Assembly: GCF_016595525.1 (NCBI RefSeq)
Contig: NZ_JAENII010000016.1
Location: 1 to 64,000 of the forward strand
Reading direction: 5' to 3'
DNA: 64,000 nt
Origin: Haloferula rosea
GTDB lineage: Bacteria; Verrucomicrobiota; Verrucomicrobiia; Verrucomicrobiales; Akkermansiaceae
Shown: piece after piece, positions 4,364-47,749 of the stretch
Position numbering within the stretch: the first letter of the stretch is position 1
Layout: each line of letters starts with the position of its first letter
Notes under the pieces: generated by a model
Told to the model about the DNA's origin: nothing
The model's input: only the letters and a program-made list of their open reading frames with translations
Database searches by the model: none
Position numbers and translations under genes: made by a program

Positions 4364-4434
4364 TCGGTGAGGGCTTGGGCCGCGGTTGGGTCAGTCTTAA
4401 CTCGATGAGATCGGATCGGAGACGATGGGCGTGC
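4364..4434 (+). repeat. 71-bp direct repeat, left copy (flanks S9 peptidase gene)
   Basis: This 71-base segment aligns without gaps to 7757-7827, with 8 mismatches. The last 24 bases (from TCGGATCGGAG to GGGCGTGC) are identical. The two copies sit in the same orientation just outside both ends of the S9 peptidase gene on the minus strand. The region between the stop of the upstream secreted hydrolase and this repeat shows nothing else recognisable. Confidence 0.85.
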
Positions 4435-4492: not shown

Positions 4493-7400
4493 TCACTTTT
4501 CAAGATCCTTCTTACGGCGCCTTCGGTTGTCCTTCTTGTTAGGCTTGGAAGGTTTGGCTTCCTTTTGATCAGCAGCATTCGCTTCGTCTGTGGACTGGGC
4601 TGGCGTCTTTTTCTGATCCGCTTCTTCCTTCTTCTCCTCGAGCTCCTTTTGTCGGTCCAGATAGGATTTCCCTTCTGTGATCCACTTGGGTGCTTTCTGT
4701 TCCTTGAGATAATGTCCGAACCACTCCAGAACACGGTAGTGGTAGTCGACCATGTTCTCGTCCTTGCGCAGTCCATGGTTTTCACCGGGGTAAACGAGCA
4801 TCACGACATCGTCTTTTCCTGCCCAGCGGGCTGCATTGTACATCTGCACGCCCTGCCCCCAATCGACGGCGCCGTCCTTGTCTCCGAAGGCCATGAGGAG
4901 CGGGGTTTCCAAGCTATCCAGACCGTGAATGGGTGAATTGCGCACGTAGTTGTCGACGTGGCGCCAGAAGGGCCTGTCCATGCGTCCTTGCGATTCGGAA
5001 AAGATCCGGGCGTTGGGTTGTCCACTGTTCCAGTAAACGCTGGCCGCCATGCTCATCATATTGGTCAAGGGAGCGCCGGCGATGCCTGCTGCGAAGAGGT
5101 CGGTTTGGGTGACGATGAAGGTGGTTTGATAGGCGCCCCAGGAATGGCCAATGAGGCCGATCCGGTCCTCGTCGATCATGCCGGTCTTGATGACCTCCTT
5201 CACGGCAGGGACGACGCATTCGACGGCGGAAACTCCCGGCTCCTGCGGACGGTAAACAATGTCGGGCTGGAACACGAAATAGCCCTCTGCCGAGTAAACC
5301 GTTGGGTTGTAGGGGTGCTTCTCGCTGGGCACGAAGTAACGGTGGAGATTCTGCGAGCGCTCCTCATAGATGTAGACGACCATCGGATACTGCTTGCCCT
5401 CTTGATAGTTCGCCGGGTAGGTGAGCATTCCTTGGAGGGCCACGCCGTTCTTGTTGGTGAAGTCCACCAATTCCGAGTGACCCCAATGGTAGTCGCCTTG
5501 GAAAGAGTTGGTATCGGTAAGTTTCCGGGCCTTGCGCAGATTTCCGTTGCTCACAAACAAGTCGGGCGATACGTCGCTGGCTTCCTTGGTGAAGATGTAG
5601 GTATTGGCTTCTTCGGCCCTGGTCAGGCTGCTGATGGCGCGGTCTTCCCATAGCAGGCGCTCCAGTTTGGCACCCTTCCCGGGCTTCGGGTCGAGGCGCA
5701 TGCGAGCGTATCCTGACTTCTTGGTTCTCTCGCCATACAGGGCGACGTAGAGCTGATTCTTCGGATGGATGGCCCCTTCATCATCCTCGTGGAAGCTCGC
5801 CTGGGAGAGGCGGTGGCGAATCATGTCCTCCGCACCATGGGTGAGCTTCACGGCATTCGATCCGTCGGGAGTGAGCTTCCAGATGTCGAAGCGGTCGTAC
5901 AGGAGAAATGCCGAGGAATCGTGGAGCCAGACGGCATTTCCGTAAGGGCGCTTCTGTTCGGTGAGTGTGTCGTCTTCCTGATTGGTGAAGTACGTTTCAA
6001 GATGCTCGGTGAGGTTGGTGGCCTTCCCCAATTTGACGTCATGAGACCAGACGTGCCCTCCCTTGAGAAACAGGAGGTAGCGACCATTCGGGCTCGAGCT
6101 CAATTGATATTTGAGCTGCTCTTCAATGCACTTGCGTTTCCCGGTAGCGGTATCGATCAGGTAGAGATCATAGAGACGGGGGCCAAACATGGCGGCTTGT
6201 TCGTGCGGCGTGTAGTCTCTTCCGGTGGCGTGCGTGCCACTGCGCAGGATGCTGGTCTGCTCGGTTAGCTCATTGGTGACTTGAATGAGCTTCCCCTTGT
6301 CCAACCACCACACGGCGGAGCGCTCCGGGTTCTTGAGTTTCGCCGCATTTTTCTTCTGCTGCGGCATGATCTCCAGGTCCTTCGAGTGCCAGACTTCAAC
6401 GTTCGAGTCTTTCTCAAGAGTCTCCCGGAGTGGCTTTGCCGCTGACTCCTTCTGGGCCGGCTTGGGGGACGAAGCGGCCTGCTTTTTCCCCTTTTTGCCG
6501 GAGGGCTTCTTCTTGGCATCCTCCTTCTTCTTGGTCTCGGGTTCTGGAGCTGACTTCTTATCGGCGGCTTCCTTGTCTTTCTCTCCCTGACTGGCAGGGC
6601 TTGTCTTTTCAGTTGCCGGCCGCTTCTCCCATTCCTTGAGTTCGCAGTAGAGGGCCTTGCCATCTTCGGACCAACTCAGCCCACCTCTTGAGATGTACAT
6701 CTTCTCGGGAAACGATTTCTCATTCGCATGCTCGTAGCGGAAGGCGAGAGGTTTTCGTCTGTCGAGGTGTCGCCACGCGAGGAGGACATGGGAGACGTCT
6801 TCCTTCTCTTCGTGCTTCATTTCCCGCATCACGGCGAGATCCATGGCATCCTTCCGCCAAAGGAGTTCGGCGTACTCTTCCTCGCTGGTCTCCAAGGTTC
6901 GTAGTTTGCCATCAGCAGGGTCGTAGACCTGGAGGGCGTTGCTGATCGAAGGGGAGTCGATCACCATGGCGAGTAGGGCACCTTCCGTACTCCAAGCATG
7001 GTGGACGACGTTGCCAAAGGTGGTGTCATGACCGGTTTCGAGGTCGCGGACGACGAGGACCTTGCCGGTTTTGCTTTCGGATTCGGGAACGACCTCCATG
7101 GCCGCGAAGCGGCTGTCGGCACTGAATGAAAAGGCGCCGATGTGTTCCAGTGAACGGGTCTCGCCATCACTGAGCCGTCTCAATTTCATGGTCTTCCCGG
7201 CAGGAGCAGGGGCCTTGTCTCCCGCTTCCTTGAGCTTCTTCAACTCGGCGGGCGATTTGCCAATCGTCACTGCAAACCAAGCGCTGTCCTTGGAGAAAAC
7301 AGGCCTCTCTCCGTACTTGTAGCTGGCCGAAGCTTCCTTGTTCTTCCCTTTGAGGTGGTAAAGGTGGAGGGACCGTTCTTCATCGACTCGCCGAATCTCA

Positions 7401-7663
7401 CAGGCAAGCCATTTGCCGTTGGGCGAGAGTTTCTGGGTCCCGAGTTTTTCCCACTGACCATAGTCCGCGGCTGTGAGCGGTGCTTGTTGGTTCTCCAGAG
7501 TGGCCGCCTTCTCGTCTTGGTTCTTCCCTTTGGACTTGCCGATCTTTTTGGTGGCGACGGGCTGGTCGGAGGTGTCCTCGTTCTGAGCACGAGTCGTGGT
7601 GGAAAAGATGGCGAGAGCCAGGAATCCGGGCAGGATGGGACGTACCCAATGGGTCAAGATCAT
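4493..7663 (-). CDS. Secreted S9 family (prolyl oligopeptidase/DPP-type) serine peptidase
   Basis: 1056 residues with an N-terminal signal peptide ending TTTRAQ. The first about 700 residues are a WD/beta-propeller-like region, interrupted near residues 340-410 by a Lys/Glu/Ala/Pro-rich low-complexity insert. The C-terminal alpha/beta-hydrolase domain has the peptidase S9 triad: Ser841 in GHSWG, Asp930 in GDKDGAV and His963 in ENHGL. A charged Lys/Glu-rich tail of about 60 residues follows. S9 enzymes cleave short peptides, often after Pro, in the periplasm or outside the cell. The Lys-rich insert and tail are unusual additions. The gene is convergent with the upstream hydrolase and stands alone. 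A 71-bp direct repeat lies on either side of it. Confidence 0.88.
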   Translation of the reverse strand: MILTHWVRPILPGFLALAIFSTTTRAQNEDTSDQPVATKKIGKSKGKNQDEKAATLENQQAPLTAADYGQWEKLGTQKLSPNGKWLACEIRRVDEERSLHLYHLKGKNKEASASYKYGERPVFSKDSAWFAVTIGKSPAELKKLKEAGDKAPAPAGKTMKLRRLSDGETRSLEHIGAFSFSADSRFAAMEVVPESESKTGKVLVVRDLETGHDTTFGNVVHHAWSTEGALLAMVIDSPSISNALQVYDPADGKLRTLETSEEEYAELLWRKDAMDLAVMREMKHEEKEDVSHVLLAWRHLDRRKPLAFRYEHANEKSFPEKMYISRGGLSWSEDGKALYCELKEWEKRPATEKTSPASQGEKDKEAADKKSAPEPETKKKEDAKKKPSGKKGKKQAASSPKPAQKESAAKPLRETLEKDSNVEVWHSKDLEIMPQQKKNAAKLKNPERSAVWWLDKGKLIQVTNELTEQTSILRSGTHATGRDYTPHEQAAMFGPRLYDLYLIDTATGKRKCIEEQLKYQLSSSPNGRYLLFLKGGHVWSHDVKLGKATNLTEHLETYFTNQEDDTLTEQKRPYGNAVWLHDSSAFLLYDRFDIWKLTPDGSNAVKLTHGAEDMIRHRLSQASFHEDDEGAIHPKNQLYVALYGERTKKSGYARMRLDPKPGKGAKLERLLWEDRAISSLTRAEEANTYIFTKEASDVSPDLFVSNGNLRKARKLTDTNSFQGDYHWGHSELVDFTNKNGVALQGMLTYPANYQEGKQYPMVVYIYEERSQNLHRYFVPSEKHPYNPTVYSAEGYFVFQPDIVYRPQEPGVSAVECVVPAVKEVIKTGMIDEDRIGLIGHSWGAYQTTFIVTQTDLFAAGIAGAPLTNMMSMAASVYWNSGQPNARIFSESQGRMDRPFWRHVDNYVRNSPIHGLDSLETPLLMAFGDKDGAVDWGQGVQMYNAARWAGKDDVVMLVYPGENHGLRKDENMVDYHYRVLEWFGHYLKEQKAPKWITEGKSYLDRQKELEEKKEEADQKKTPAQSTDEANAADQKEAKPSKPNKKDNRRRRKKDLEK

Positions 7664-7756: not shown

Positions 7757-7827
7757 TCGGTGAGGTCTGGGGCCGTGGTCGGGTCAGTCACCACTCGATG
7801 AGGTCGGATCGGAGACGATGGGCGTGC
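7757..7827 (+). repeat. 71-bp direct repeat, right copy (flanks S9 peptidase gene)
   Basis: This copy matches 4364-4434 at 63 of 71 positions in the same orientation. It lies 94 bases upstream of the S9 peptidase start and about 105 bases before the start of the rightward lipoprotein gene, so it sits in a divergent promoter region. It has no coding sense and no terminal inverted repeats that I can see. Confidence 0.85.
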
Positions 7828-13558: not shown

Positions 13559-16500
13559 ATGACCCTTCATCGAATCACCTTCGTGATCATTGGCGTGACT
13601 GCGATGCCGCTGGCCGCAGTCGACCAAGAATCGCAGCCAAGTGGTGGAAGTCTGAGCAGCATTTCCGAAGGCGGATTCGAGTTCCCCGCCCTTTCGCCGG
13701 GCACATTCGCGTACCAACCGGATGGGGCCGCGTGGTCCTTCAGTGGCTCCACCGGCATCTCCAGGGACAACAGCGCTTTCACTTCCGGCAACCCGATCGC
13801 GCCGGAAGGACAGCAGGTTCTGTTTCTTCAGGATGGCACCGGAAATTTCGTCGAACAAACCTTCACCTTCGGGCCGGGCACCTTCCGCCTCCACCTGAAG
13901 GCAGCCCAACGCGCCAATGTCAACCAGGCCGGGCAAACCTTTCGCGTCCTCCTCGACGGACAGGAGATTTCGCAGCATACCCCGAAGGACACCAACTACG
14001 CCGACATGGTGACAAGCACCTTCACGGTCACTGGTGGTCCACACACCATCCGCCTCGAAGGACTCAATCCCCTGGGTGGAGACAACACCGCCTTCATCGA
14101 TGACCTCCAGCTGGAACATCTCGGCAACCCTCTCCTCTGGTCCAGTCCTTCCACATGGATCAGTGGCTCCGTTCCCGGGCCCGGCGACGATGTCACCATC
14201 CCAGCCGGATCCTTCGTTCTCTTCGATCAAACCTCCACCGTCCGAAGTCTCACGGTCAACGGTGCCCTTTTGATCGACAGCCAGAATCTCACACTCGACT
14301 CCGACTGGGTGATGGTCGGCGGCCTCTTTCAGTGCGGCACAGCTGCCAGCCCTCATCTCGAGGACTTCACCCTCACCCTCACGGGGCTCTCCAGCGAATC
14401 CGTCGGCGCGATGGGCGGGAAGTTCTTCGGCATCATGCCGGGAGGCCGAGCAGACGTCCACGGCATCGAAAAACTGAGCTGGACCCAGCTTGGTGCCACC
14501 GCCGAAGCCGGAGCAACCGACATCACATTGAAGGAGCCTGTGGACTGGAGCACCGGCGACGAGATCATCATCGCATCCACGGATTTCGATGCTCATCAGG
14601 CTGAAAAGCGAACCATCACCTCGGTGGATCCGGACGGACTCACCATCAACTTCAGCAGTGGCCTTTCCTACATGCACTGGGGCACCCTCCAGCACTACGA
14701 CGATGGCACCGACCTCCACACTCTCGACGAACGCGCCGAGGTCGGACTGCTTTCCCGCAACATCCTCATCCAGGGAAATGCTGCTTCAGAAAGCGACGGC
14801 TTCGGAGGACACCTCATGGCCATGCCCGGATCCGAAGTGTACTTCGACAGTGTCGAGCTCTACCGCCTTGGTCAGAAGTCCATCCTCGCCCGCTATCCCT
14901 TCCACTGGCACAACGCCGGAAATGTGGCGGGGCAGTACCTCAAGAACTGTGGCATTCATCGTTCCTTCAATCGCGTCGTCACGGTGCACAATACCGACAA
15001 CGCCCTCATCGAAGGGAATGTCGGCTACGATCACATCGGACATGGATTCTTTCTCGAGGACGGAGGCGAAGTCGGAAACATGTTCCGCCGCAACCTCGGC
15101 ATCCTCACGCGCAAACCCACTCCCGGCGAAGAAGTCCGGCCCCACGACCTCGCCATCGATGGCGACTTCGTCAAACTGCCCTCCACCTTCTGGATCACGA
15201 ACCCCAGCAACCATTTCATCGACAACGCGGCGGCGGGTTCCGAAGGATCCGGCTTCTGGATGGTGATCCTCGACGCACCGGTCGGCAGCTACTCTGGCCC
15301 CGCGATGAGACCCGGTAGAATGCCCATGGGGACCTTCACGGGAAACCGGAGTCATTCCAACAGCTTCTCCAGCTTTGCCATCGACGGCGGCATCGACGCC
15401 ACCACCCACGAACTCAGCAGCGGCCACTACAGACCTCGTAGCGATCCATTCAACGGAGGCTCCCCGATCGTCATCCCCGAGATCCGCGATTTCACCGGCT
15501 TCAAGTGTCGCGACCGCTGCCTCTGGTTCCGCGCCGATTCCATCAACCTCTACGACTGCGCCCTTGCCGACAACGGCCGCTCGACCTTCTTCGCCTACAA
15601 CCAGGTCCTCCACGATTCCCTGATCGTCGGTCGCAGCGCCAACATCGGCAATCCCCAGACGGCTACCGAACTCTCCTACGGCTACTCACTCCCGCTTCCC
15701 TCCCGCCGCACCCAGATGCGGGGCCACAGTATCTATGACGGCCCCTGCGGTATCGTGAACGTCCACTTTGCCGGCTTCGACGACATCGACCCCGCCCTCC
15801 AAACCAACGGTGCCGCCCAGAAGAGCACCGTCCACTTCGCCGAAGGCATCACCTTCGACCCCGCCATCTCCTTTGCCAACAAGGTCGACTTCACGCCCGC
15901 CGCGTGGCGGGACTACATGTGGAGTTCCGGTCTTATCGACCGCGATGGCAGCATCACCGGCACACCCGGCACCCGCCTCACCCCGGACATCCCGGACAAC
16001 TACTCCGGTCGTCTCACCGAGGACTTCAACCGGGAAGCCTCCGCGACCCTCGTCCCGGAATGGGGGGCCTGGCTCTGCCCTAACGAACACTACGGCCTCC
16101 TCCGCCTCGACAACAGGTGGCCTCAGTATTCCGGCACGCCCATCTATGCCCACCGCTCCGACGGACCCGCCGCCTACAACCAACAGACCTACGACTGGTA
16201 CAGTCAGAACGCGGTCATCGTGAACTCTCCCCTCAACTACCGCTTCCAGTATCTGGAAATCGCCAATCGCATCGATGTGAATCTCCGTTTCGTCGACGAC
16301 GGCGACGAACTCATCGCGGTCTTTCCGAACATGCCCGCTCACACCTACGTCTATCGGAACAATTTCTCCACCCCCCTTCCCACCGCCTCCAGCCTCAGCG
16401 ACCTCGAATCATCAACCACCGAGAAGTTCTGGTTCCGCGACAACACCCTCCATGTAAAGCTCATCGGCGACAATGGCGGCTACAACCCTCAATTTGGAAA

Positions 16501-18145
16501 CGACTTCAGCTCGCGCAGCTCCAGCATCCGCCTCTGCCAATTCTCCGGCGGGGCCAATTCCTCCGGCCGCACCGACCGCGTGACCCTTGCCGACTTCGAG
16601 ATGGGCGTCGACAACCGCGGCTCCGCCACTTCTCCCGATGGACTGACCGTCTCCCCCGTCATCGCCACCAGCTCTGGCCCGGGCACTGGTCCGTTCGACG
16701 CCACCGACGACCGAATCGCGTGGACCGTCACCAGCGACGGCGACGGGCTCGATGAAGTCGCTGAGTATCGACTGAATTTTCCCCGCCAGATCTGGGCCGA
16801 CTACGACGCCATGAACCTTTCGTTTAGCGGCCCCCGTTCAGAGATCCTCGTCGTCGACCAAAGTGAAGGCGAGTTTTCCATCGGTGTTTTTGATCCCACT
16901 GACAGCGACAACATCCGCCTCGGATCGATCGCTCCCCCCGGTTCGCTCGACGAAGTCGTGGGGCTCGTCATTCGCTGCCGCGAAAGCGATTGGAGTTCCC
17001 TCGGGTCGTCCCTTCCTCAAACCATCGAGCTGCTCCAGATCGAGTTGATCCACTCGTCCTCCGCTCCTTACAGCGTTTCATTTTCCCCCGACCTCGATAA
17101 CGACGGCATTCTCAACGTCGATGAACCTCCCGGCGACCTCGACGGCGACGGACTCAACAACGAGGAGGACACCGACTCCGATGGCGACAACAAACGAGAT
17201 GATTGGGAGCTTGCCCGGGGACGCGATCCCTACCACCCCATCGATCTCGGCTTCGAATTCGAGACCGACCTCGAAGGATTCTCCAATCACAATACTCAAC
17301 TATCAAACCTTCAGGCAAACGGCGGATTTCTGACCACGGTCACCACCGGTGGTGACGGCTACTTCTGGCAGGATGGATTCCACTTCCCCGGCAGCTCCGT
17401 CCCCGCGATTCACGTCAAGATGCGCTCCAGCAAATCAGGTAGCCTCCAGTGCTACTGGGCTCGCCTTGGTGCCCCGAACTTCAGCGAATCACGAATTATC
17501 TCACAAAGCTATAGTCCTTCCGACACCTGGCAGTTGGTCACCCTCGACCATGCCGGACACTCCGAATGGAACGACGAAACGATCAGCAGTCTACGCTTCG
17601 ACCCCATCAACAAGGCATCCGCCACGGTCGAGATCGACTGGATCCGCTCCAGCGATGGTGACATGGATCAGGACGGTATTCCCGACGCCACCGAAGGCAC
17701 CGCCGACCCGGATGGTGACGGACTCTTCAACCTCGAAGATCCCGATTCCGACAACGACGGTGCACTCGACAAGGTCGAGAACCTTTACGGTCGCAATCCC
17801 TATGCAGACGACGAGAGCAGCATCGACTCCGACGGCGACGGCCAAACCGATCTTGAGGAAATGATCGCAGGGCATCATCCGGACGATGCCAGCGACTCCC
17901 TGAAGATCCATCTCACCACGCATGGAAGCGGGCCCAGCGCCTTCTGCCGTATCCACCTCGAGGGCAAAGCGGGACGCCTCTACCATCTCGAAGCCAGCGC
18001 TGATCTCTCGGCAGGTAACTGGAGTTCCGTCCGAACGATTTCCCCGTCCTCAAGTGACTCCCCGATCACCATCGATGATACCGAACTCATCGGTGATCAT
18101 TCCCGGCGTTTCCTCCGCGTTGTCGTCTCCCATCCTGCCCCGTGA
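13559..18145 (+). CDS. Giant secreted G8-domain/parallel beta-helix protein (CEMIP-like) with TSP3 calcium repeats
   Basis: 1528 residues, signal peptide ending PLAAVD. Domains in order: a galactose-binding-like jelly roll (about 36-185); a G8-like region (about 195-330, starting WSSPSTWISGSVPGPGDDV); a right-handed beta-helix with ARYPFHWHNAGN near 445, which closely resembles the YPxHxH block of CEMIP/TMEM2 hyaluronidases; then two blocks of thrombospondin type 3 repeats (near 1178-1215 and 1365-1435, DxDxDG motifs). The protein closes with RRFLRVVV in the C-terminal domain shared by other secreted proteins here. It probably binds or cleaves a polysaccharide outside the cell, with calcium-stiffened stalks. 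It has no close operon partner. Enzyme activity is inferred from the family only. Confidence 0.82.
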   Translation: MTLHRITFVIIGVTAMPLAAVDQESQPSGGSLSSISEGGFEFPALSPGTFAYQPDGAAWSFSGSTGISRDNSAFTSGNPIAPEGQQVLFLQDGTGNFVEQTFTFGPGTFRLHLKAAQRANVNQAGQTFRVLLDGQEISQHTPKDTNYADMVTSTFTVTGGPHTIRLEGLNPLGGDNTAFIDDLQLEHLGNPLLWSSPSTWISGSVPGPGDDVTIPAGSFVLFDQTSTVRSLTVNGALLIDSQNLTLDSDWVMVGGLFQCGTAASPHLEDFTLTLTGLSSESVGAMGGKFFGIMPGGRADVHGIEKLSWTQLGATAEAGATDITLKEPVDWSTGDEIIIASTDFDAHQAEKRTITSVDPDGLTINFSSGLSYMHWGTLQHYDDGTDLHTLDERAEVGLLSRNILIQGNAASESDGFGGHLMAMPGSEVYFDSVELYRLGQKSILARYPFHWHNAGNVAGQYLKNCGIHRSFNRVVTVHNTDNALIEGNVGYDHIGHGFFLEDGGEVGNMFRRNLGILTRKPTPGEEVRPHDLAIDGDFVKLPSTFWITNPSNHFIDNAAAGSEGSGFWMVILDAPVGSYSGPAMRPGRMPMGTFTGNRSHSNSFSSFAIDGGIDATTHELSSGHYRPRSDPFNGGSPIVIPEIRDFTGFKCRDRCLWFRADSINLYDCALADNGRSTFFAYNQVLHDSLIVGRSANIGNPQTATELSYGYSLPLPSRRTQMRGHSIYDGPCGIVNVHFAGFDDIDPALQTNGAAQKSTVHFAEGITFDPAISFANKVDFTPAAWRDYMWSSGLIDRDGSITGTPGTRLTPDIPDNYSGRLTEDFNREASATLVPEWGAWLCPNEHYGLLRLDNRWPQYSGTPIYAHRSDGPAAYNQQTYDWYSQNAVIVNSPLNYRFQYLEIANRIDVNLRFVDDGDELIAVFPNMPAHTYVYRNNFSTPLPTASSLSDLESSTTEKFWFRDNTLHVKLIGDNGGYNPQFGNDFSSRSSSIRLCQFSGGANSSGRTDRVTLADFEMGVDNRGSATSPDGLTVSPVIATSSGPGTGPFDATDDRIAWTVTSDGDGLDEVAEYRLNFPRQIWADYDAMNLSFSGPRSEILVVDQSEGEFSIGVFDPTDSDNIRLGSIAPPGSLDEVVGLVIRCRESDWSSLGSSLPQTIELLQIELIHSSSAPYSVSFSPDLDNDGILNVDEPPGDLDGDGLNNEEDTDSDGDNKRDDWELARGRDPYHPIDLGFEFETDLEGFSNHNTQLSNLQANGGFLTTVTTGGDGYFWQDGFHFPGSSVPAIHVKMRSSKSGSLQCYWARLGAPNFSESRIISQSYSPSDTWQLVTLDHAGHSEWNDETISSLRFDPINKASATVEIDWIRSSDGDMDQDGIPDATEGTADPDGDGLFNLEDPDSDNDGALDKVENLYGRNPYADDESSIDSDGDGQTDLEEMIAGHHPDDASDSLKIHLTTHGSGPSAFCRIHLEGKAGRLYHLEASADLSAGNWSSVRTISPSSSDSPITIDDTELIGDHSRRFLRVVVSHPAP

Positions 18146-25259: not shown

Positions 25260-26417
25260 CTACTCTTTGAATGCCGCCCACAAGAACCCGCCCGCGGGCA
25301 CCTCTAGCTTCAACCGCCCCCGCTTCATCCCATCGAGCTGAATCTCGATCGACTCTCCGCCATTCACCGAAACCTCCGCTTTCCCTTCCAACCCGGAGTA
25401 GTGCAGCGGGATCACCCACTCCTCTTCCAGATCCTTTTCTGTTGGATTGAAAACCACCAGCATCGCCTTCTCCTTCAAACCCGGGTTCACATGGAGCATC
25501 CCATCGAGCCCACGACCGTCGGCACGCCGCAGGTGGATCATGTCACTTTCCAGAATGTCGCGGTGCGCTTTGAACCATGCGACATGTTTCTTCATCATGT
25601 CCCGCACCCGTGGCGTATCAAAGAGCCGCGGCCCGCGATAGCATGCTTGCACTCCCATCGCGAGGTTGCTCAGGATCATCCGCTCGTAGTGATCGATGTG
25701 CTGGTCGAGTGGCTCGATCGTCGCCGCAGCACCTCCCCCATGGTAATGGCTGAGCGGCACGAACATCCATCCCATCGACGGTGTTTTCATCCAGCTGCCG
25801 TCATGGATGTTCTGTCGGGTGTGGATCAACTGCTGCGCACGGGGCAACGACCAGTTGGTTTCCCGATAACCCATCCCACACTTGTTGCTACCAGACAAGT
25901 AGTAGTAGTCCGGGGCGTTCAGATACACCCCGCGACCGCGCAGCCACTTGTAGAAATCGGACCATATCTTCCAGTGCACCCAGCGTGAATCGTCCACGCC
26001 CTTTTGCAGCGGCGGCCGGGCGGTGACATCCACATCTCCCGGATACGGTCCGTCGTGTTCGAAGATCGTGAAGCCGGTTGTCTCGAACAAGCCATAGAGT
26101 TTCTTCAGATACTCCTGTCCCCACTCGCTGGTGATCGCCGGGCAGTTGCCGTGGGCCGGCCGTTCACCTTCCGGAGAGACGATCGAATTCCCGCCGCCGA
26201 TGCTCCGCGACGAGTAGAGCGAATAGCAGCCGAGCTCGATCCCCTTCGACCGGGCATGATCGTTGATCTCCTTCCACTGCGCGAGGTAAGCGGGATCATT
26301 GTTTTCCGCGTTGAAGCCGGAACCAAAAGACAGGATCACCATTTCGAACCCGACCTCCGCCGCCTGGTCAATCGCGCTACGCACCAACTCGGGCTCCGCG
26401 GTGCGCATGTGGTGCAT
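25260..26417 (-). CDS. C-terminal half (TIM barrel) of split GH36-like glycosidase
   Basis: 385 residues if translation could restart at the ATG at 26417, which has no ribosome binding site. It contains the barrel: AEVGFEMVILSFGSGF, IELGCYSLYSS, TGFTIFEHDGPYPGD (Asp is the likely nucleophile, as in GH-D enzymes), a helix-rich stretch, and a closing beta domain (AMLVVFNPT, VPAGGFLWAAF). Substrate is probably an alpha-linked galactoside or related sugar, by family only. No signal peptide, so as a free-standing product it would stay in the cytoplasm. Confidence 0.6.
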   Translation of the reverse strand: MHHMRTAEPELVRSAIDQAAEVGFEMVILSFGSGFNAENNDPAYLAQWKEINDHARSKGIELGCYSLYSSRSIGGGNSIVSPEGERPAHGNCPAITSEWGQEYLKKLYGLFETTGFTIFEHDGPYPGDVDVTARPPLQKGVDDSRWVHWKIWSDFYKWLRGRGVYLNAPDYYYLSGSNKCGMGYRETNWSLPRAQQLIHTRQNIHDGSWMKTPSMGWMFVPLSHYHGGGAAATIEPLDQHIDHYERMILSNLAMGVQACYRGPRLFDTPRVRDMMKKHVAWFKAHRDILESDMIHLRRADGRGLDGMLHVNPGLKEKAMLVVFNPTEKDLEEEWVIPLHYSGLEGKAEVSVNGGESIEIQLDGMKRGRLKLEVPAGGFLWAAFKE

Positions 26418-26426
26418 CAGCGGATT

Positions 26427-28100
26427 CTAGGTCACCCATGGAGCGACCGTGCGATACATCTTTCGCACGGCCAGCGCGCGCCGCTCGCGCTGGGTGCTGT
26501 CCATGGCCAGCTCGAACACCCGGAACGACTCGAACGAAGCTCCCGGCTCCACCGCTTGCGCCGGGCCACGGGTCGGCTCGACGACCAGCAGGCACGGTTG
26601 CTTGAGTGCGTAGTTCACCTGCGTCTTGAACTCGGGGTCCGGGCGATAGTGCACGGCATGTCGGTTCGCCTGCTCATGGTTGAAACCGCCGAATGCCATA
26701 TCAGTCTCCACGTGCAGCCCACGAGGCTGGGGCAGCGGCACTCCCTCGCGTGTCTCGACGTGGTTGCTGTGCTCAACCAAGGCCAGCGTTTCCGCGGTGA
26801 AGCGCTCTATTTCGATCTCGCGGTCACCTCGGTTCTCCACCGTCAGCCATTTCACCAGCAGCGGAATGCCGTCGTAGAGTTCGTAGTGAAGCGAAACCCG
26901 CAGCGGTGAGTCAGCCTGCTCCGGCAACTTCAACGGATCGACCGGGCCGAAGACGCTCACCTGCTCCACGCGGCAGCGTCCCCACTCCCCCCCCAGGTCG
27001 GTCTGGTCGCCCGCCCCGCCGGAGCGGTCGGTCTTGCCGACCCGCATCGCGACGACTTCACCCCAGTTCCCCCGCGCCACCTCGAACAACGAATGCCAAC
27101 GCGCCCCTTCCCGATCGACGGCCACCTCCCAATGCAGCTTCTCCACGCCGATCCTCACCCGCAGTCGATAAGCCTGCTCGACCGACAGGCCGCCATCCTC
27201 CGCGGCGAGCTCCTCCACACTCGCCAACCGTTCACGACCGCCCACCCGCAGCTCGAACGGTCCGTGCTCGCCACGATCGCCGGGCCGCAGGTTCACATCC
27301 ACGACCTGCTTCCCGAATACCAGCGCCATGCCCGGGCCCCAGCTCGTCCCATCGTCGGTTCCAGGATGGATCCGCACCTCGATCAGGCCGGCATCCTTCG
27401 ACACGGCCCGCTCCGCGAAACAATGCACGTTGCTTGGAGCAAAAATCTCTCCCGCCTTCCCCTCATTCTCAAAACCCACCCGCTCCCCGACCGACGATCG
27501 AAGGATCTTCCATGCCGGATCCAGCTTCTCAAACCGATCCTCCCACAGCAGTTCCCTCCCAGCGCTCGCATCGCCGCCACCGGCCGCTACCGCCGAGGGC
27601 TCGAAGTCGAAGCGCAGACTCACACCCGGCGTCGGCCATTCGGCATCCGGTGCATGGTGCCGCACCTTCTTCCACGCAAAGCGCGCCACCGGCTTGCCTT
27701 CCTCCATCCCCACCAGACGCATGGCCAAGGGATCAAAACTCATCGCCGCGAGGTGCTCGTCGGTGAAAAACGCATGGTTCGGCTGCCCCTTCATGCCGCC
27801 GATCACGTGTTCGCGGCCATCGATCACGACACGTGCATCCGGACGGATCGCGCGGATGATCGACTCCCCGGTCGCGAGGTTGTCGAAGCCAATCGTCGCG
27901 AAGCCCGGATCGACGCGGAACACTCGTCGCACCAACCCGTTCGTAAGCGTGACGTCCTTCGATCCGTCGCCTTGCTCGACCCGGGCCTTGAATCCCGACC
28001 CATCGACCAACCAATCGACCTCGGGTCGATAGGTCTCCGGTGGCAGGGCGAAAAGCGGGGCCGTGATGGATGTCACAGCGAGGAGGCACATGCGGATCAT
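26427..28100 (-). CDS. N-terminal half of split GH36-like glycosidase
   Basis: 557 residues as it stands. The start at 28100 gives a signal peptide; an upstream start in the frame would add a charged 19-residue leader. Residues of about 30-175 and 400-555 form the beta-supersandwich usual in front of a GH36 barrel (TNGLVRRVFRVDPGF; FGGFNHEQANRHAVHY). Between them lies an insert of about 190 residues (ELLWEDRFEKLDPAWKIL ... CRVEQVSVFG) that reads like a LamG/DUF1080-type jelly roll. Without the second half it would lack catalytic residues. Confidence 0.6.
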   Translation of the reverse strand: MIRMCLLAVTSITAPLFALPPETYRPEVDWLVDGSGFKARVEQGDGSKDVTLTNGLVRRVFRVDPGFATIGFDNLATGESIIRAIRPDARVVIDGREHVIGGMKGQPNHAFFTDEHLAAMSFDPLAMRLVGMEEGKPVARFAWKKVRHHAPDAEWPTPGVSLRFDFEPSAVAAGGGDASAGRELLWEDRFEKLDPAWKILRSSVGERVGFENEGKAGEIFAPSNVHCFAERAVSKDAGLIEVRIHPGTDDGTSWGPGMALVFGKQVVDVNLRPGDRGEHGPFELRVGGRERLASVEELAAEDGGLSVEQAYRLRVRIGVEKLHWEVAVDREGARWHSLFEVARGNWGEVVAMRVGKTDRSGGAGDQTDLGGEWGRCRVEQVSVFGPVDPLKLPEQADSPLRVSLHYELYDGIPLLVKWLTVENRGDREIEIERFTAETLALVEHSNHVETREGVPLPQPRGLHVETDMAFGGFNHEQANRHAVHYRPDPEFKTQVNYALKQPCLLVVEPTRGPAQAVEPGASFESFRVFELAMDSTQRERRALAVRKMYRTVAPWVT

Positions 28101-28153
28101 CCGCTCCCTACGCAGACCCGCCCGGGATCTTTCCGGGTCGCAGGGTTCTGGCT
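27928..28153 (-). repeat. Direct repeat A, left copy (5' end of GH36-like gene)
   Basis: The first about 58 codons of the GH36-like gene plus about 50 bases of its leader recur at 33734-33961 at an offset of 5806 bases, same orientation and roughly 90 percent identical by eye. Between the copies lies the giant seven-repeat protein gene. Protein differences include Val to Leu and Val to Ile at EVDWLV versus ELDWLI. Confidence 0.85.
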
Positions 28154-28406
28154 CCAATGCAGGTCCGCGAAGGGCCAGTCCCGTTCTTCAAGCGTCGCTG
28201 GTTGGGCGAGAGGCATTGATGGCGCGCTGTGAGCGCGGCTTGAGAACACTGCTGCTTGTTAGTCGTTCGTTCGCACCTTCTCGGTCGCGCTGCATGGGGC
28301 GATCGGGCGCAAAGGGCGAAAAGGTGAATATTTGATAAGATATGCGGAGTCTGCGGCAACTCGTGCCAAGTGGAGTTCCCCGAAATAGCAAAATATGCAT
28401 AGTGCA

Positions 28407-31400
28407 ATGAAAAGCGTACGCATTCCCCTCTGCGCGCTTCTCCCACTTGGAAGCGCATTCGCCCAGACCCACATCTGGGAACACAAGGCCGACGGTCGAT
28501 TCTACGGTGACTGCAATGGCAGCGATCCCGGCGGTGCAAGCTACTGGCCGAACAACACCCGATGGAGCCAAGATTTGGCGATCGGCTCCTGCAATGGCGT
28601 GTCGGGTGTCGTGGTCGAGCCGAGCAACTGGAACGTGGCAAGTTTCCCCAACAGCCCGACGGCGGAAGTCCTGATCAACAGCGGGCCGGAGATCGACGTC
28701 GACGGCTATTTCTCGGTGGGCACCCTGGAGATCACCTCCGGCATCAACCTGCCGCTCTACGGCTCCTCGACGATCGAGGCACATCAGTCGATCACCAACA
28801 ACGGAACCATCACGATCGCCGACCTGGGCCCTGGCTCAGCGGTGCTGAAGATCGACGGCAACGTGACCCTGAATGGAACCGGGGAGGTGATCTTCGGGTC
28901 GGAATTCAATAACCAGATCAGCTCGGTGAACGCTGCCGACGTGCTGACCATCGGAAACGCGCAAGTGATCCGCACGCTGGCCAACACCACCTCGATCGAT
29001 AGCTGGATTCAATGTTCGATCGACAACCAAGGCACGATCAGCGCCGACCAGGGCGACCTCAAACTGTTCTACAACACCAAGACCAACAACGGCACGATGC
29101 AGGCGATCAACGGCGGCACGCTGTTGTTCACCTCGACGACGGTCAACAACGCCGGGGGCACGATCACGGCGGGGCCCGGGAGCATCGTCGACTTCGACGC
29201 GATGACGCTCGCCGGGGGGACGCTGAACGGAGCCGGGACATTCGACGTGTCCGGTTGGGCGTCGGTCTTCGACGGCACAAGCGATCCCGTGGCGGTGAAT
29301 GGCACCGTCGAGGTCAACAGCTATGGAAAGGTGCAGATGAAGGGCGGCATCAACCATGCCAGCACGATCTGGCTCCAGGATCCCGGCTCCGGATACTCCG
29401 AAATCGAGATCAGCGGGGATGTGAACCTTCAGGGTGCCGGGCAGGTGATCTTCAACGGACCGAATGACAACCGGGTGATCTCGGTGAACCCCGGCGACGT
29501 CCTGACCATCGGTCCGGAGCAACAGTGGACGACCAGTGCCGACACCGACATCGACAGCCGGATCATCGCCGCCATCGACAACCACGGAACGATCACCGCC
29601 GATCAGGGCCTCCTCAGACTCGATACCAACCCGAAGACCAATCAGGGCACGCTGCAGGCCACCAACGGAGGCACCCTGCTCGTCCAGTCGATCAACATCA
29701 ACAACACCCTCGGGACGATCACCGCCGGTGACCTGAGCACCATCGACCTGAACAGTGCGACGGTCACGGGAGGAGTCCTCAATGGCGACGGGGTGTTCGA
29801 CATCAGTGGCACCCCTTCGATCTTCGACGGGACGACCTTCCCCGTGAACCTCGTGGGAAAACTCGAAATCAACAGCTATGGCAAGCTGCAGCTTCAGGGG
29901 ACCCTCAACAACACGAGCACCATCTGGATCCAGGATCCCGGCTCCGGTTACTCGGAGATCGAGGTCATTGGCAACGCCAGCGTGCTGGGAGCAGGTGAGG
30001 TGATCTTCAACTCGCAAAACGACAACCGGATCATCTCATCGAACGTGACCGACGTGCTGACGATCGGCCCGTCCCAGCACTGGAAAACCAGCGCCGATGC
30101 GGATCCGTGGGACAACCGGATCATCGCGTCCATCGACAACCAGGGCACGATCAGCGCCGACACCGGGGGGCTCACGCTGGACACCCATCCGAAAACCAAC
30201 CATGGGCTGATGCAGGCAACGAACGGGGGAACCCTGCGGTTCTCCTCGACTCAATTGAACAATGTCAGTGGCCAACTCACGGCGGGCCCCGGCAGCATCG
30301 TGGATCTCAATGCCTCGACGATCACGGGTGGGGTCCTCAACGGATCCGGTAGCTTCGAAGTGATCAACACCACTTCGACCTTCGACGGGTCGGGCAGCCC
30401 GCTGCAGTTCAGCGGAACTGCGGACCTGGGAAGCTACGGCATTCTGGTGCTGCGCGGCGGCGTGCAGAACACCGGTCGCATCAACATCACCGATCCGAGC
30501 GCGGGGACCAGCTACCTGAGAATCGACGGAGACGTCGTTCTGACGGGCACCGGCGAGGTCGTCTTCAACTCGCCGAACGACAACCTCATCGACTCGGTGG
30601 ACCCGGCTGATCTCTTGACCATCGGCACCAACCAGACCCTGCGCACAATCGCCGGGACCAGCCCCATCTACAGCCGCCTGGTCGCGAAGACGGTGAACGA
30701 GGGCACTATCCACGCAGACGGCGGCGGCCTGCAGCTCGACACCCACCTCAAGACCAACAACAGCCAGATCAGCGCCCTGAACGGAGGCAAGGTGAGGATC
30801 TACAATACCTCGGTGGACAACACCAACGGCACCATCACGGCTGAAACCGGCAGCATGGTGGAAATCCAGAATGCCACCCTAACAGGCGGAACCCTCGACG
30901 GAGACGGCAGCTTCTCGGTGGTGGGCGCGACGGGCAACATCATCGATTCCTCGGCCGCACCGGTGATCTTCGACAGCACCATGGAACTGGGCACCGGCGA
31001 CACCCTCACCGTGCGCGGCAACCTCGAGAACCGGGGTGTCATCAACCTCGCCGATCTTGCGAGCGGCATCACCTACCTCCGGCTCGACGGAGACGTGACG
31101 CTCAGTGGCGATGGCCGCGTGGTGTTCAACTCCACCGAGGACAACTACATCGAGGGACTGGATCCGGCGCACGTCCTTACAGTCGGATCCAGCCAGCTCC
31201 TGACCACGAGCACCGACAGCCGGGTGGATTGGAGCCGGTTGGTGGCCGAGACGATCAACCACGGCACGATCCGCGCGGATGGTGGAGGCCTGCAGCTGCT
31301 GACCAACCCGAAACGCAACCACCACCGGATCGAGGCGATCAATGGCGGAAACCTCCGGATCTACAACACGACGATCGACAACCGGGGCGCCACCCTTTTC

Positions 31401-33467
31401 GCCGATCACCTGAGCACGGTGGAGCTCTCCAGCGCCACCGTAAGTGGTGGATCGCTCACCGCCACACGCGTGGGCGAGGATCGGGGAACCTACCATGTGA
31501 TCTCCACCGCCATGCTTGATGGCAGCGTCGAAACCATCACGCTCGACGGAGATCTCGAGATCGATGGCAGTGAGACGCTGACCCTGGTCGGCACGGTCCA
31601 GAACGATGGCATCATCCATGTGACCGACCTCTCCAGCAGCATCGCCTACCTGAACATTGATGGCGATGTGAGCCTGCTCGGCAGCGGCCAGGTCCGGCTC
31701 GAGAGCAACGATGACAACTGGCTGGACTCAGCCGACCCGACCGACGTGCTGACGATCGGCCCGGACCAAGAACTGGTGGCCGACCCTTCGACGCTCGCGG
31801 GAGCGAGCCACAGCCGGATCCTGACGGCCTGCGACAACCAGGGCACGATCACGGTGGACGGCGGCGGGCTGCAGCTCGACAGCCATGCGAAGACCAACAA
31901 CGGCCTGATTCACACGCTCGACGGCGGCAACCTCCGCGTCGAGGGAACCAGCGTGGACAACAGTGGCGGGGTGATCAGCCTCGATGCCGCCGGGATCCTT
32001 CACCTCTACAATGGCACAATCACCGGCGGCGCGATCGACGGTGATGGAGCGATCATCCCGCTCACCGGCACCGACACGCTCGGAGACCTCAGCCTCGGAG
32101 CCGGCGTCACCGCAACGATCGGCACCAGCCGGGTCCTGAACCTGTCCGGCACGGTGACCAACAACGGGCGGATCGAAATCAACGATGACGGTGGCAGCAT
32201 CGCGACCCTGCGGGCCGACGGCCCGGTGAGCCTGCTGGGCAGCGGACAGGTGGTGTTCAATACTTACGACGACTGCTACCTCGACTCGACGGATCCCGGA
32301 GATGTCCTGACGGTGGGACCGGACCAGACCCTCACCACGGCAGCGACGACCCTTCTCGGCGAAAGCCGCCTGATCTGCGCGCTGGTCAACCAGGGCACGC
32401 TGGAGGCGAATGTCGGCAGCCTGAGCCTCTACACCCACCCAAAGACCAACGCCGGAGTGTTCCGGGCAGCGAACGGCGGTACGCTCCAGATCTTGAGCGC
32501 CGACACCCAGCTCACCAACTATGCCGGGGGCACGCTGAGCGGCGGGCGCTGGGAAGTGCTTGGTGATACGGCACCGGCGGTGATCGACCTGCCGGGCACC
32601 ACGATCACTCAACTCGCTCCAGGCACCGAGGTGGTGCTGCGCGGGATGGCATCCATCCCGCAGTTGGCGTCGCTGATCGCGATCCACGGCAAGCTGGCCA
32701 TGCACGACGGACAGAGCTTCACCACGACGGGAAGTCTCGACGTCAACGGCCACCTTGAGTTCGGCCTGCCGGACTCGGGACCTACGAACTGGGACACCAC
32801 CAAGCTGGTGGTCGATGGCGACGTCGATCTCACCGGCGCGGTGATCGACATCGTCAACCGCGGGATGACGGCCGGGCGTTATCGCTTGATCGAATACAAC
32901 GGCTTCCGCACCGGGACGCCGACCCTCGGCACGCTGCCGGCAGGCTTCAGCTACAGCCTCGATACCAGCGTGGCCGGCCAGATCGACCTCGTCAGTGGTG
33001 GGGTCTCCGCCTTCGACGAGTGGAAGAGCAGCGGCAGCATGGGTGCGGTGACCTTCGGTGGCGACACCAACGGTGACGGCGTGCAGGACGGCATGGCCTT
33101 CCTGCTGGGTGTGGCCAATCCGGATCACGATGCCAATGGCTCCCTGCCTGAAGTCAGCGAGGATAGCAGCGGCAACCTGGTCATGGCCTTCCGCTGCCTC
33201 GCCATTACAGAACGCGGCACTTCGGTCCTCAACCTGTCCTATGACGGGGACCTGGCCGGGGCGTGGTTGAGCGTTCATGTTCCCGGTGTGATCGGGGCCC
33301 CCAACCCCTTGGTCGAGTCCACCCCAAGCGGCAGCGTCAGCTTCGTGGCAACGGACGGAGGCACGAACGCCAACGGTGACGCTCTGATCGACATCGTGGC
33401 CACCATCAGCGATGGAACCCAGTCGGCAGGGGGCCAGCTGTTTGGTCGTCTCGAGGGCACCGAGTGA
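28407..33467 (+). CDS. Giant secreted protein with seven about 187-residue repeats
   Basis: The start at 28407 gives MKSVRIPLCALLPLGSAFAQ, a good signal peptide (an ATG four codons upstream is also possible); about 1686 residues. From about residue 130 to 1370 there are seven repeats, each with a block like LxIDGDVxLxGxGxVxFNSxxDN, then DVLTIGPxQ, NQGTI, KTNxG and TGGxLNGDG: a predicted beta-helix. A DTNGDGVQDGMAFLLG calcium-loop segment (about 1555) precedes the final beta-rich part. It is of adhesin or surface-layer type, with no enzyme motif. A strong terminator follows the stop. Spontaneous length change by recombination between repeats is likely. Direct repeat A brackets the gene. Confidence 0.82.
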   Translation: MKSVRIPLCALLPLGSAFAQTHIWEHKADGRFYGDCNGSDPGGASYWPNNTRWSQDLAIGSCNGVSGVVVEPSNWNVASFPNSPTAEVLINSGPEIDVDGYFSVGTLEITSGINLPLYGSSTIEAHQSITNNGTITIADLGPGSAVLKIDGNVTLNGTGEVIFGSEFNNQISSVNAADVLTIGNAQVIRTLANTTSIDSWIQCSIDNQGTISADQGDLKLFYNTKTNNGTMQAINGGTLLFTSTTVNNAGGTITAGPGSIVDFDAMTLAGGTLNGAGTFDVSGWASVFDGTSDPVAVNGTVEVNSYGKVQMKGGINHASTIWLQDPGSGYSEIEISGDVNLQGAGQVIFNGPNDNRVISVNPGDVLTIGPEQQWTTSADTDIDSRIIAAIDNHGTITADQGLLRLDTNPKTNQGTLQATNGGTLLVQSININNTLGTITAGDLSTIDLNSATVTGGVLNGDGVFDISGTPSIFDGTTFPVNLVGKLEINSYGKLQLQGTLNNTSTIWIQDPGSGYSEIEVIGNASVLGAGEVIFNSQNDNRIISSNVTDVLTIGPSQHWKTSADADPWDNRIIASIDNQGTISADTGGLTLDTHPKTNHGLMQATNGGTLRFSSTQLNNVSGQLTAGPGSIVDLNASTITGGVLNGSGSFEVINTTSTFDGSGSPLQFSGTADLGSYGILVLRGGVQNTGRINITDPSAGTSYLRIDGDVVLTGTGEVVFNSPNDNLIDSVDPADLLTIGTNQTLRTIAGTSPIYSRLVAKTVNEGTIHADGGGLQLDTHLKTNNSQISALNGGKVRIYNTSVDNTNGTITAETGSMVEIQNATLTGGTLDGDGSFSVVGATGNIIDSSAAPVIFDSTMELGTGDTLTVRGNLENRGVINLADLASGITYLRLDGDVTLSGDGRVVFNSTEDNYIEGLDPAHVLTVGSSQLLTTSTDSRVDWSRLVAETINHGTIRADGGGLQLLTNPKRNHHRIEAINGGNLRIYNTTIDNRGATLFADHLSTVELSSATVSGGSLTATRVGEDRGTYHVISTAMLDGSVETITLDGDLEIDGSETLTLVGTVQNDGIIHVTDLSSSIAYLNIDGDVSLLGSGQVRLESNDDNWLDSADPTDVLTIGPDQELVADPSTLAGASHSRILTACDNQGTITVDGGGLQLDSHAKTNNGLIHTLDGGNLRVEGTSVDNSGGVISLDAAGILHLYNGTITGGAIDGDGAIIPLTGTDTLGDLSLGAGVTATIGTSRVLNLSGTVTNNGRIEINDDGGSIATLRADGPVSLLGSGQVVFNTYDDCYLDSTDPGDVLTVGPDQTLTTAATTLLGESRLICALVNQGTLEANVGSLSLYTHPKTNAGVFRAANGGTLQILSADTQLTNYAGGTLSGGRWEVLGDTAPAVIDLPGTTITQLAPGTEVVLRGMASIPQLASLIAIHGKLAMHDGQSFTTTGSLDVNGHLEFGLPDSGPTNWDTTKLVVDGDVDLTGAVIDIVNRGMTAGRYRLIEYNGFRTGTPTLGTLPAGFSYSLDTSVAGQIDLVSGGVSAFDEWKSSGSMGAVTFGGDTNGDGVQDGMAFLLGVANPDHDANGSLPEVSEDSSGNLVMAFRCLAITERGTSVLNLSYDGDLAGAWLSVHVPGVIGAPNPLVESTPSGSVSFVATDGGTNANGDALIDIVATISDGTQSAGGQLFGRLEGTE
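28800..32540 (+). repeat. Seven tandem about 560-bp coding repeats
   Basis: Equivalent blocks begin near 28821, 29378, 29932, 30492, 31056, 31625 and 32184, a spacing of about 553-570 bases. Copies 2 and 3 are the most alike (both carry the GSGYSEIE segment), suggesting a late duplication of that unit. The fourth to seventh copies have SYLRIDGD-type versions of the same strand. Confidence 0.8.
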
Positions 33468-33673: not shown

Positions 33674-33739
33674 CCATGGATCGTTGGAAGCAGACTGCCA
33701 CCCTCTCCTGACAGTCAAAGCATGCCTTCGCGACGCACC
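33674..33739 (+). repeat. 66-bp direct repeat B, left copy
   Basis: Aligns without gaps to 36685-36750 with 14 mismatches of 66; the shared cores are TTGGAAGCAG, CTCCTGACAGTCA and CCTTCGCGAC. Its right end overlaps the broken end of repeat A by a few bases, so it marks a recombination junction. Confidence 0.7.
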
Positions 33740-33906
33740 AACCCGTTCGTGAGCGTGACGTCCTTCGATCCGTCGCCTTGCTCGACCCGGGCCTTGAATC
33801 CCGAACCATCGATCAACCAATCGAGCTCCGGCCGGTAGGTCTCCGGTGGCAGGGCGAAAAGCGGGGCCGTGATGGATGTCACAGCGAGGAGGCACATGCG
33901 GATCAT
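33734..33906 (-). pseudogene. Truncated 5' fragment of a GH36-like gene
   Basis: From the ATG at 33906 it reads MIRMCLLAVTSITAPLFA and continues through TLTNGLVRR, almost identical to the first about 58 residues of the split glycosidase. It then runs into unrelated sequence and stops within six codons at 33715. It contains only the signal peptide and the first strands, so it cannot be functional as an enzyme. It is a duplication remnant; the missing remainder is not seen nearby. Confidence 0.85.
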
Positions 33907-33961
33907 CCGCTCCCTACGCAGACCCGGCTCGGATCTTTCCGGTCCACAGGGATCTGGCGTC
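33734..33961 (-). repeat. Direct repeat A, right copy
   Basis: Second copy of 27928-28153 in the same orientation. It stops abruptly at 33734, exactly where repeat B begins, and fades out at about 33961 in the former leader region. Together with the left copy it brackets 5.6 kb holding the giant repeat-protein gene. Confidence 0.85.
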
Positions 33962-33995
33962 CGTGGTGGTCAGGCAGAGAAGTCCGCGGTGCGCT

Positions 33996-46568: not shown

Positions 46569-46708
46569 CAACATATTCGACCCTAGGGTTCAAGCACTTG
46601 TTCTGTTAGTGGAAATTCATGGACCGAAGGGTGAGTAGAAGAACGGATCGCCTCACGCGCTGCGTCATGTCTTCGTAAATCCTCGACAGGCGGCCTGGAT
46701 GCTGCTTG

Positions 46709-46722
46709 ATAGGATATCCTAT
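46709..46722 (+). promoter_or_regulatory. Palindrome covering ribosome binding site and start codon
   Basis: ATAGGATATCCTAT is a perfect 14-base palindrome. Its left part holds the AGGA ribosome binding site and its right end the first two bases of the ATG of the DUF2235 gene. It settles the start at 46721. Such a palindrome could be an operator or let two messages pair and block translation (inference). Confidence 0.4.
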
Positions 46723-47749
46723 GAAAAGGATTGTCATTTGTTCTGACGGGACTTGGAACTCGCCCGACGACGAACAAGCGACAAACGTGCTGCGGTTCTC
46801 GCGCGCCATCGCACCTGTGGACAATGACGGCGCCAATCAGGTCGTCTTCTACGACTGGGGTGTGGGGGCCGACCGAAAGAAGATGAGCGGCGGCATCTCG
46901 GGTGCGGGAATCGATAAGAACATCATGGACTGCTACCGGTTCATCGTTCACAATTTCGAACCCGGCGATCAGCTCTTCTTCTTCGGATTCAGCCGTGGCG
47001 CCTATACCGTTAGATCACTTGGCGGATTCATTCGGAATTGTGGGATATTCAAGCGGGAACATGCCGACCGAATCCCTTCGGCCTATGATCACTACAGGCG
47101 TCGTCAACCGAGCAGCAGCCCCGATGCGCATGCCTCCGTCGAACTGCGACGTCGCTACGCTTGGAAAGACCGGCCCGAGATCGAGTTTCTGGGAGTATGG
47201 GACACAGTAGGGAGTCTGGGTGTCCCTGTCACCTTCTTCGGTCTCCTCGACAACGAAGAGTATCTGTTTCACGACACCTCGCCTAGCAGCATCATCCAGT
47301 GTGCCCGACACGCCATGTCCATCGACGAATGCCGGAAGGACTTCCCAGTGACCCGCTGGGATGTGAAGCCGGGAATCGACCTGAAGGAGGTTTGGTTTGC
47401 CGGCGTACACAGTGATGTGGGAGGCGGCTACGAAGACGACAACCGGCTCTCTGAAGTTGCAGCGACGTGGATGGCGCAAGAAGCCGCGGCAAGGGGGCTT
47501 CGGTTTGAGTCCTTCCTTCTCGATGCACTGGAGGATGTACCCGGAGCATCCCAACACCCCCAGCCCACCGGGATCTACCGGGTCAGAGGCAAGCGCTGGA
47601 GGAAGCTGCTGCTCGATGACCTTGTCCACGAATCGGTCAGGCGCAGATACCAGTATCTTGGCCGCAGATGGAAAAGCCCAGCGTTCCGGAAATTCTTCAA
47701 GGCCCACGATCACGACTGGTCCAGTCTACATATCGAAGGAAATCCGTAG
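46721..47749 (+). CDS. DUF2235 alpha/beta hydrolase (phospholipase Tle1-like domain)
   Basis: 342 residues from ATG 46721, which has AGGA six bases upstream (an ATG five codons earlier lacks it). The family is clear: KRIVICSDGTWNSPDD at the N terminus, GFSRGAYTVRSLGGFI with the nucleophile Ser, LGVWDTVGSLG, and WFAGVHSDVGGGY with the catalytic Asp/His region. DUF2235 occurs in Tle1-type phospholipase effectors of type VI secretion and in stand-alone cytoplasmic proteins. No secretion signal is present. Gene order is DUF2235, two-TM protein, TPR protein, all rightward. No VgrG, PAAR or other type VI gene is near. Toxin, defence or lipid turnover roles are all open. Confidence 0.85.
   Translation: MKRIVICSDGTWNSPDDEQATNVLRFSRAIAPVDNDGANQVVFYDWGVGADRKKMSGGISGAGIDKNIMDCYRFIVHNFEPGDQLFFFGFSRGAYTVRSLGGFIRNCGIFKREHADRIPSAYDHYRRRQPSSSPDAHASVELRRRYAWKDRPEIEFLGVWDTVGSLGVPVTFFGLLDNEEYLFHDTSPSSIIQCARHAMSIDECRKDFPVTRWDVKPGIDLKEVWFAGVHSDVGGGYEDDNRLSEVAATWMAQEAAARGLRFESFLLDALEDVPGASQHPQPTGIYRVRGKRWRKLLLDDLVHESVRRRYQYLGRRWKSPAFRKFFKAHDHDWSSLHIEGNP

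Follow-up and report, generated by a model that had tools for sequence, protein, structure and literature searches.

The GH36 alpha-galactosidases, among them SpAga (6phv), AgaSK (2yfn), AgaA (4fnr) and AgaB (4fnq), are the described enzymes closest to the protein considered here. Their fold consists of an N-terminal beta domain, a (beta/alpha)8 barrel and a C-terminal beta domain, and barrel strand 4 ends in the catalytic Asp. At the level of the gene, the closest described system is the ordinary young nonsense pseudogene, that is, a patchily distributed accessory gene which by general knowledge carries one in-frame stop and is otherwise intact; the gene described below shares these properties.

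In this paper we describe a GH36-like glycosidase gene of Haloferula rosea, located at 25260-28100 on the minus strand of the stretch of 64,000 nucleotides that was analysed (the window). The contig that holds the window is 85.9 kb long, and the genome amounts to 4.68 Mb in 69 contigs and is 97.5% complete. The gene has 946 codons and a terminal TAG (25260-25262) and is broken once, by a premature TAG at codon 558 (26427-26429). A comparison of this codon with its equivalents in homologues, together with the decoding capacity of the host and the predicted fold of the protein, suggests that an accessory gene has probably been inactivated by a recent nonsense mutation. Titles and abstract openings in the literature yielded nothing on this gene, which does not prove its absence from print.

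Materials and Methods

Homologues were obtained from 97 related genomes, from genome_contigs, and from a class-wide sample of 384 genomes in which at most two candidates per genome were scored. A scan of genome_contigs with a single sequence as query gave no match; a profile-based scan gave 534 pattern-matched stretches, 524 of which encode relatives, and the best 80 were kept. Codon 558 was read in 118 homologue loci (13 from the 97-genome search, 80 from genome_contigs and 25 from the class-wide sample), and distinctness was judged by 303 nt of context, by which 113 of the 118 are distinct. The sequences of L007 and L091 are the same around the site.

The structure model used was built from 81 sequences (mean pLDDT 90.8) and replaced an earlier model built from 14 rows (pLDDT 75.8). 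Background levels of in-phase frame pairs were taken from 483,923 bases of the organism's own genome, the window included, using open frames of at least 100 codons. A codon-usage test for split genes gave four candidates and missed the known TAG, and it was replaced by a plain list of in-phase frames. The 42 tRNA places found were all read with ARAGORN.

Results

Read on the minus strand from 28100 to 25260, the frame runs from an ATG to the terminal TAG and contains a single internal stop, the TAG at codon 558. The first-pass annotation of this DNA had described two minus-strand frames joining in phase at 26427-26429, with protein unbroken on both sides, and had ascribed the break to a single base change without frameshift or deletion. 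Its coordinates and phase are correct; homologue alignments run straight across codon 558, the best of them spanning approximately residues 11-945; and across the 946 codons there is no second stop and no frameshift or indel is needed. The nearest same-genus homologue (L003 = L032, 69% identity) has GAG at the site, one base away from the TAG found here.

A residue is aligned to codon 558 in all 118 loci. It is Glu in 112 of the 113 distinct loci (59 GAG, 53 GAA), as had been predicted for the stop position, and Gln in the remaining one (CAA, L088); a conserved stop was not found, the count being 0 of 113. Among the 80 genome_contigs loci (the best 80 of 524), 76 have one open frame over the site, three are cut by contig ends and one (L068) has a TAA elsewhere, so that separate N-terminal and C-terminal genes with the same boundary, the arrangement which the first-pass annotation had named as contrary to its reading, were looked for and occur in none of them. 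The 25 further class-wide loci have Glu at the site and no stop within the alignment across it. The frame is therefore continuous in homologues around the stop, as in a nonsense pseudogene.

Interruptions at other positions were seen in a few relatives. L068, from a Bacteroidetes MAG, carries its single TAA (L068:4770) near query residue 393, in the linker that joins the inserted domain to the GH36-like part. One TGA each is present at a place in G179 and in G077, the latter within a weak match of 61 residues, and the match of L013 (G066) ends after query residue 730.

The 557 codons before the stop (26430-28100, minus strand) encode a start that by eye resembles a signal peptide (the protein is probably secreted), followed by beta-domains that include an inserted beta-sandwich at approximately residues 178-395 and by a linker helix (538-552). 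The 388 codons beyond it (25260-26426, minus strand) encode the (beta/alpha) barrel and a C-terminal beta-domain, and the first in-frame ATG past the stop, codon 562 (26415-26417, minus strand), is a possible restart that lies within barrel strand 1 (562-565). The model thus contains the three elements of the GH36 fold in order, N-terminal beta domains, (beta/alpha)8 barrel and C-terminal beta domain; shorter homologues are without the inserted beta-sandwich. Both Foldseek and VIA-align placed GH36 alpha-galactosidases at the top, over model residues 38-946, with 6phv as the best VIA-align match (Z 24.2, rmsd 5.1, 572 residues aligned), and GH27 barrels came next, over the barrel part (Z approximately 20-21). 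Asp683 (26052-26054, minus strand) is invariant in homologues and ends barrel strand 4 in the model, and is a likely candidate for the nucleophile. The stop stands directly before barrel strand 1, with Asp683 beyond it, and the active-site domain would therefore be lost.

By sequence the relationship is faint. Pfam Glyco_hydro_36N scores 19.8 bits, under the cut-off of 27, and the protein is therefore not filed as GH36 by sequence; the post-stop part matches no Pfam family at E <= 0.1, NCBIfam gives no match at E <= 0.01, and sequence searches of solved structures return nothing at E <= 0.01, the best hit (0.028) being an alpha-galactosidase. The GH36-like identity proposed in the first-pass annotation is accordingly upheld at the level of the predicted fold, by the model, Foldseek and VIA-align, and is weak at the level of sequence.

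Constraint on either side of the stop was assessed at positions conserved in homologues. At sites conserved in at least 95% of homologues, the gene departs at 2 of 66 pre-stop and 2 of 107 post-stop positions, and as many departures or more occur in 33 and 19 of the 80 homologues, respectively; when the threshold is lowered to 90%, the departures number 7 of 100 and 3 of 123, and 12 and 27 of the 80 have as many or more. The pre-stop part is somewhat high in departures at the 90% level, and on neither side are conserved sites clearly enriched in changes, as would be expected if the inactivation is young. In the C half, dN for the window and for a same-genus relative is 0.293 and 0.316 when measured to L039, and 0.276 and 0.282 when measured to L004; the corresponding values in the N half are 0.573 and 0.553 (L039) and 0.569 and 0.635 (L004). 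The C half is thus no faster than in the same-genus relative, and the N half is slightly faster against L039. Since dS is near saturation, the change is not datable; the lack of a second lesion and of long decay means that it is recent, or an error.

The host has prfA (RF1), which scores 481 bits where the cut-off is 423. The anticodon CUA is absent from all 42 tRNA genes found, the 'tag' of L156 being that of a tRNA-Leu, and a missed tRNA is possible because the genome is 97.5% complete. TAG closes 3 of the 13 window genes whose ends were checked, namely this gene and two other large ones. As in a nonsense pseudogene, the stop is therefore probably one that the host does not decode as an amino acid. 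Given RF1, the lack of a CUA anticodon in the tRNA genes found and the use of TAG as a gene end, reassignment of TAG is not supported and tRNA suppression of the TAG at codon 558 is unlikely.

In the sample of the organism's own genome, 31 pairs of in-phase open frames meet at one stop, including the present pair and the pair at the gene's own end. Ten of the 31, the glycosidase pair not among them, were put to Pfam, and in none of these did a family match cross the stop; L157, for which there is no family, is uninformative.

The gene is patchy in its distribution. A match at E <= 0.001 was found in 17 of the 97 related genomes, own genome included, and of the 16 others 11 are strong (E < 1e-80) and five are weak or partial, mostly to the inserted domain; within the genus, the gene was matched in 3 of 17 genomes, and this patchiness makes loss of the gene plausible. 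In the class-wide sample, 30 of the 384 genomes, own included, have a match at E <= 1e-20. Outside the organism's own genome, 34 class-wide matches reach E < 1e-90; 33 of them are without an internal stop and one has a TGA (G179:C30).

A second copy of the catalytic part was not found in the own genome (97.5% complete), which holds only a relic of the 5' end. This truncated duplicate (33727-33971, minus strand) comprises approximately 55 bp of upstream sequence and the first 60 codons, after which the similarity ends; 33731-33962 is a 93% copy of 27925-28155, 5.8 kb away, and at its widest the repeated pair is 33727-33971 and 27925-28165 (minus strand). The relic shows that an earlier duplication and rearrangement took place at the locus, and together with the gene start it flanks a repetitive 1690-aa ORF (28395-33467, plus strand) with internal repeats of approximately 555-558 nt that are 60-79% alike and with no Pfam or NCBIfam match.

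Elsewhere in the window, a 71-bp direct repeat (4364-4434 and 7757-7827, 89% identical) flanks a prolyl-oligopeptidase (S9) gene at 4493-7663. The ORF at 13559-18145 (plus strand) encodes 1528 aa with a G8 domain and a CEMIP beta-helix, domains known from animal hyaluronan-binding proteins. Pfam T6SS_Tle1-like_cat matches (E 2.4e-81) residues 16-268 of the ORF at 46679-47749 (plus strand).

Discussion

We consider it likely that a recent nonsense mutation inactivated this accessory GH36-like glycosidase gene. A conserved Glu codon would recently have become TAG through one base substitution. Translation would then end after 557 residues, with the N-terminal beta-domains made and the catalytic barrel missing. 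Were translation to restart at the next ATG, its product would start within barrel strand 1 and have no export signal, so that an active enzyme is unlikely. We infer that the TAG base is real in living cells and that enzyme function is lost. Against this reading stand the 7 departures in 100 before the stop at the 90% level and the N-half dN to L039 of 0.573 as against 0.553. The conserved post-stop part is also compatible with an error, or with a gene that still works.

The first-pass annotation had left three options, recent inactivation, readthrough and sequencing error, and readthrough is made unlikely by RF1, the lack of a CUA anticodon, the use of TAG at gene ends and the 0 of 113 stops in homologues, so that recent inactivation and error remain. 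An error in sequencing or assembly, by which the organism's gene is intact and one consensus base is wrong, would account for a lone substitution that is the gene's only lesion and is flanked by no clear decay. There is no sign of many such errors in this genome, in that none of the ten in-phase pairs put to Pfam (of 31) is crossed by a family match; that sample is partial and includes L157, which has no family, and it says little about one isolated error, which we regard as rather unlikely.

It is quite improbable that the amber codon is tolerated and the protein still made, through low-level readthrough or restart, in a smaller amount or as two pieces separated at the domain boundary. Of these two routes, readthrough would supply a little full-length enzyme by near-cognate decoding of UAG, and it would explain why the post-stop part is still conserved and the frame intact; against the RF1 of this host, a set of 42 tRNA genes with no CUA anticodon, TAG at 3 of 13 window gene ends and the complete lack of stops at this position in 113 distinct homologues, we hold it to be very improbable. 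A functional split, in which the second part is restarted at the ATG four codons past the stop and the two parts cooperate, draws on the position of the TAG at the junction of N-terminal domains and barrel. It would nonetheless place the restart inside barrel strand 1; the second part, judged by eye, has neither a clear Shine-Dalgarno sequence nor an export signal, and no homologue is divided at this boundary (76 of 80 are in one frame, three end at contig edges and one has its stop elsewhere); this makes it very improbable too.

The observation, then, is real, its cause is most likely ordinary, and a new kind of gene is not indicated. The inactivation by nonsense mutation is of little significance in itself, being a further case of a lone nonsense codon in an accessory carbohydrate-active gene, and for annotators it is a caution that what look like two neighbouring ORFs belong to one broken gene. 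Intact relatives are widespread and make up a GH36-like group (524 of the 534 stretches) whose catalytic part is unmatched by Pfam and NCBIfam models, and which may merit separate characterisation.

Compared with the ordinary young nonsense pseudogene, only the particular gene differs. The predicted fold of its product is like that of SpAga, AgaSK, AgaA and AgaB over nearly the whole length, whereas identity to these GH36 alpha-galactosidases is approximately 10%; the window protein differs from them further in its added beta-sandwich at approximately residues 178-395 and in its interruption by a TAG.
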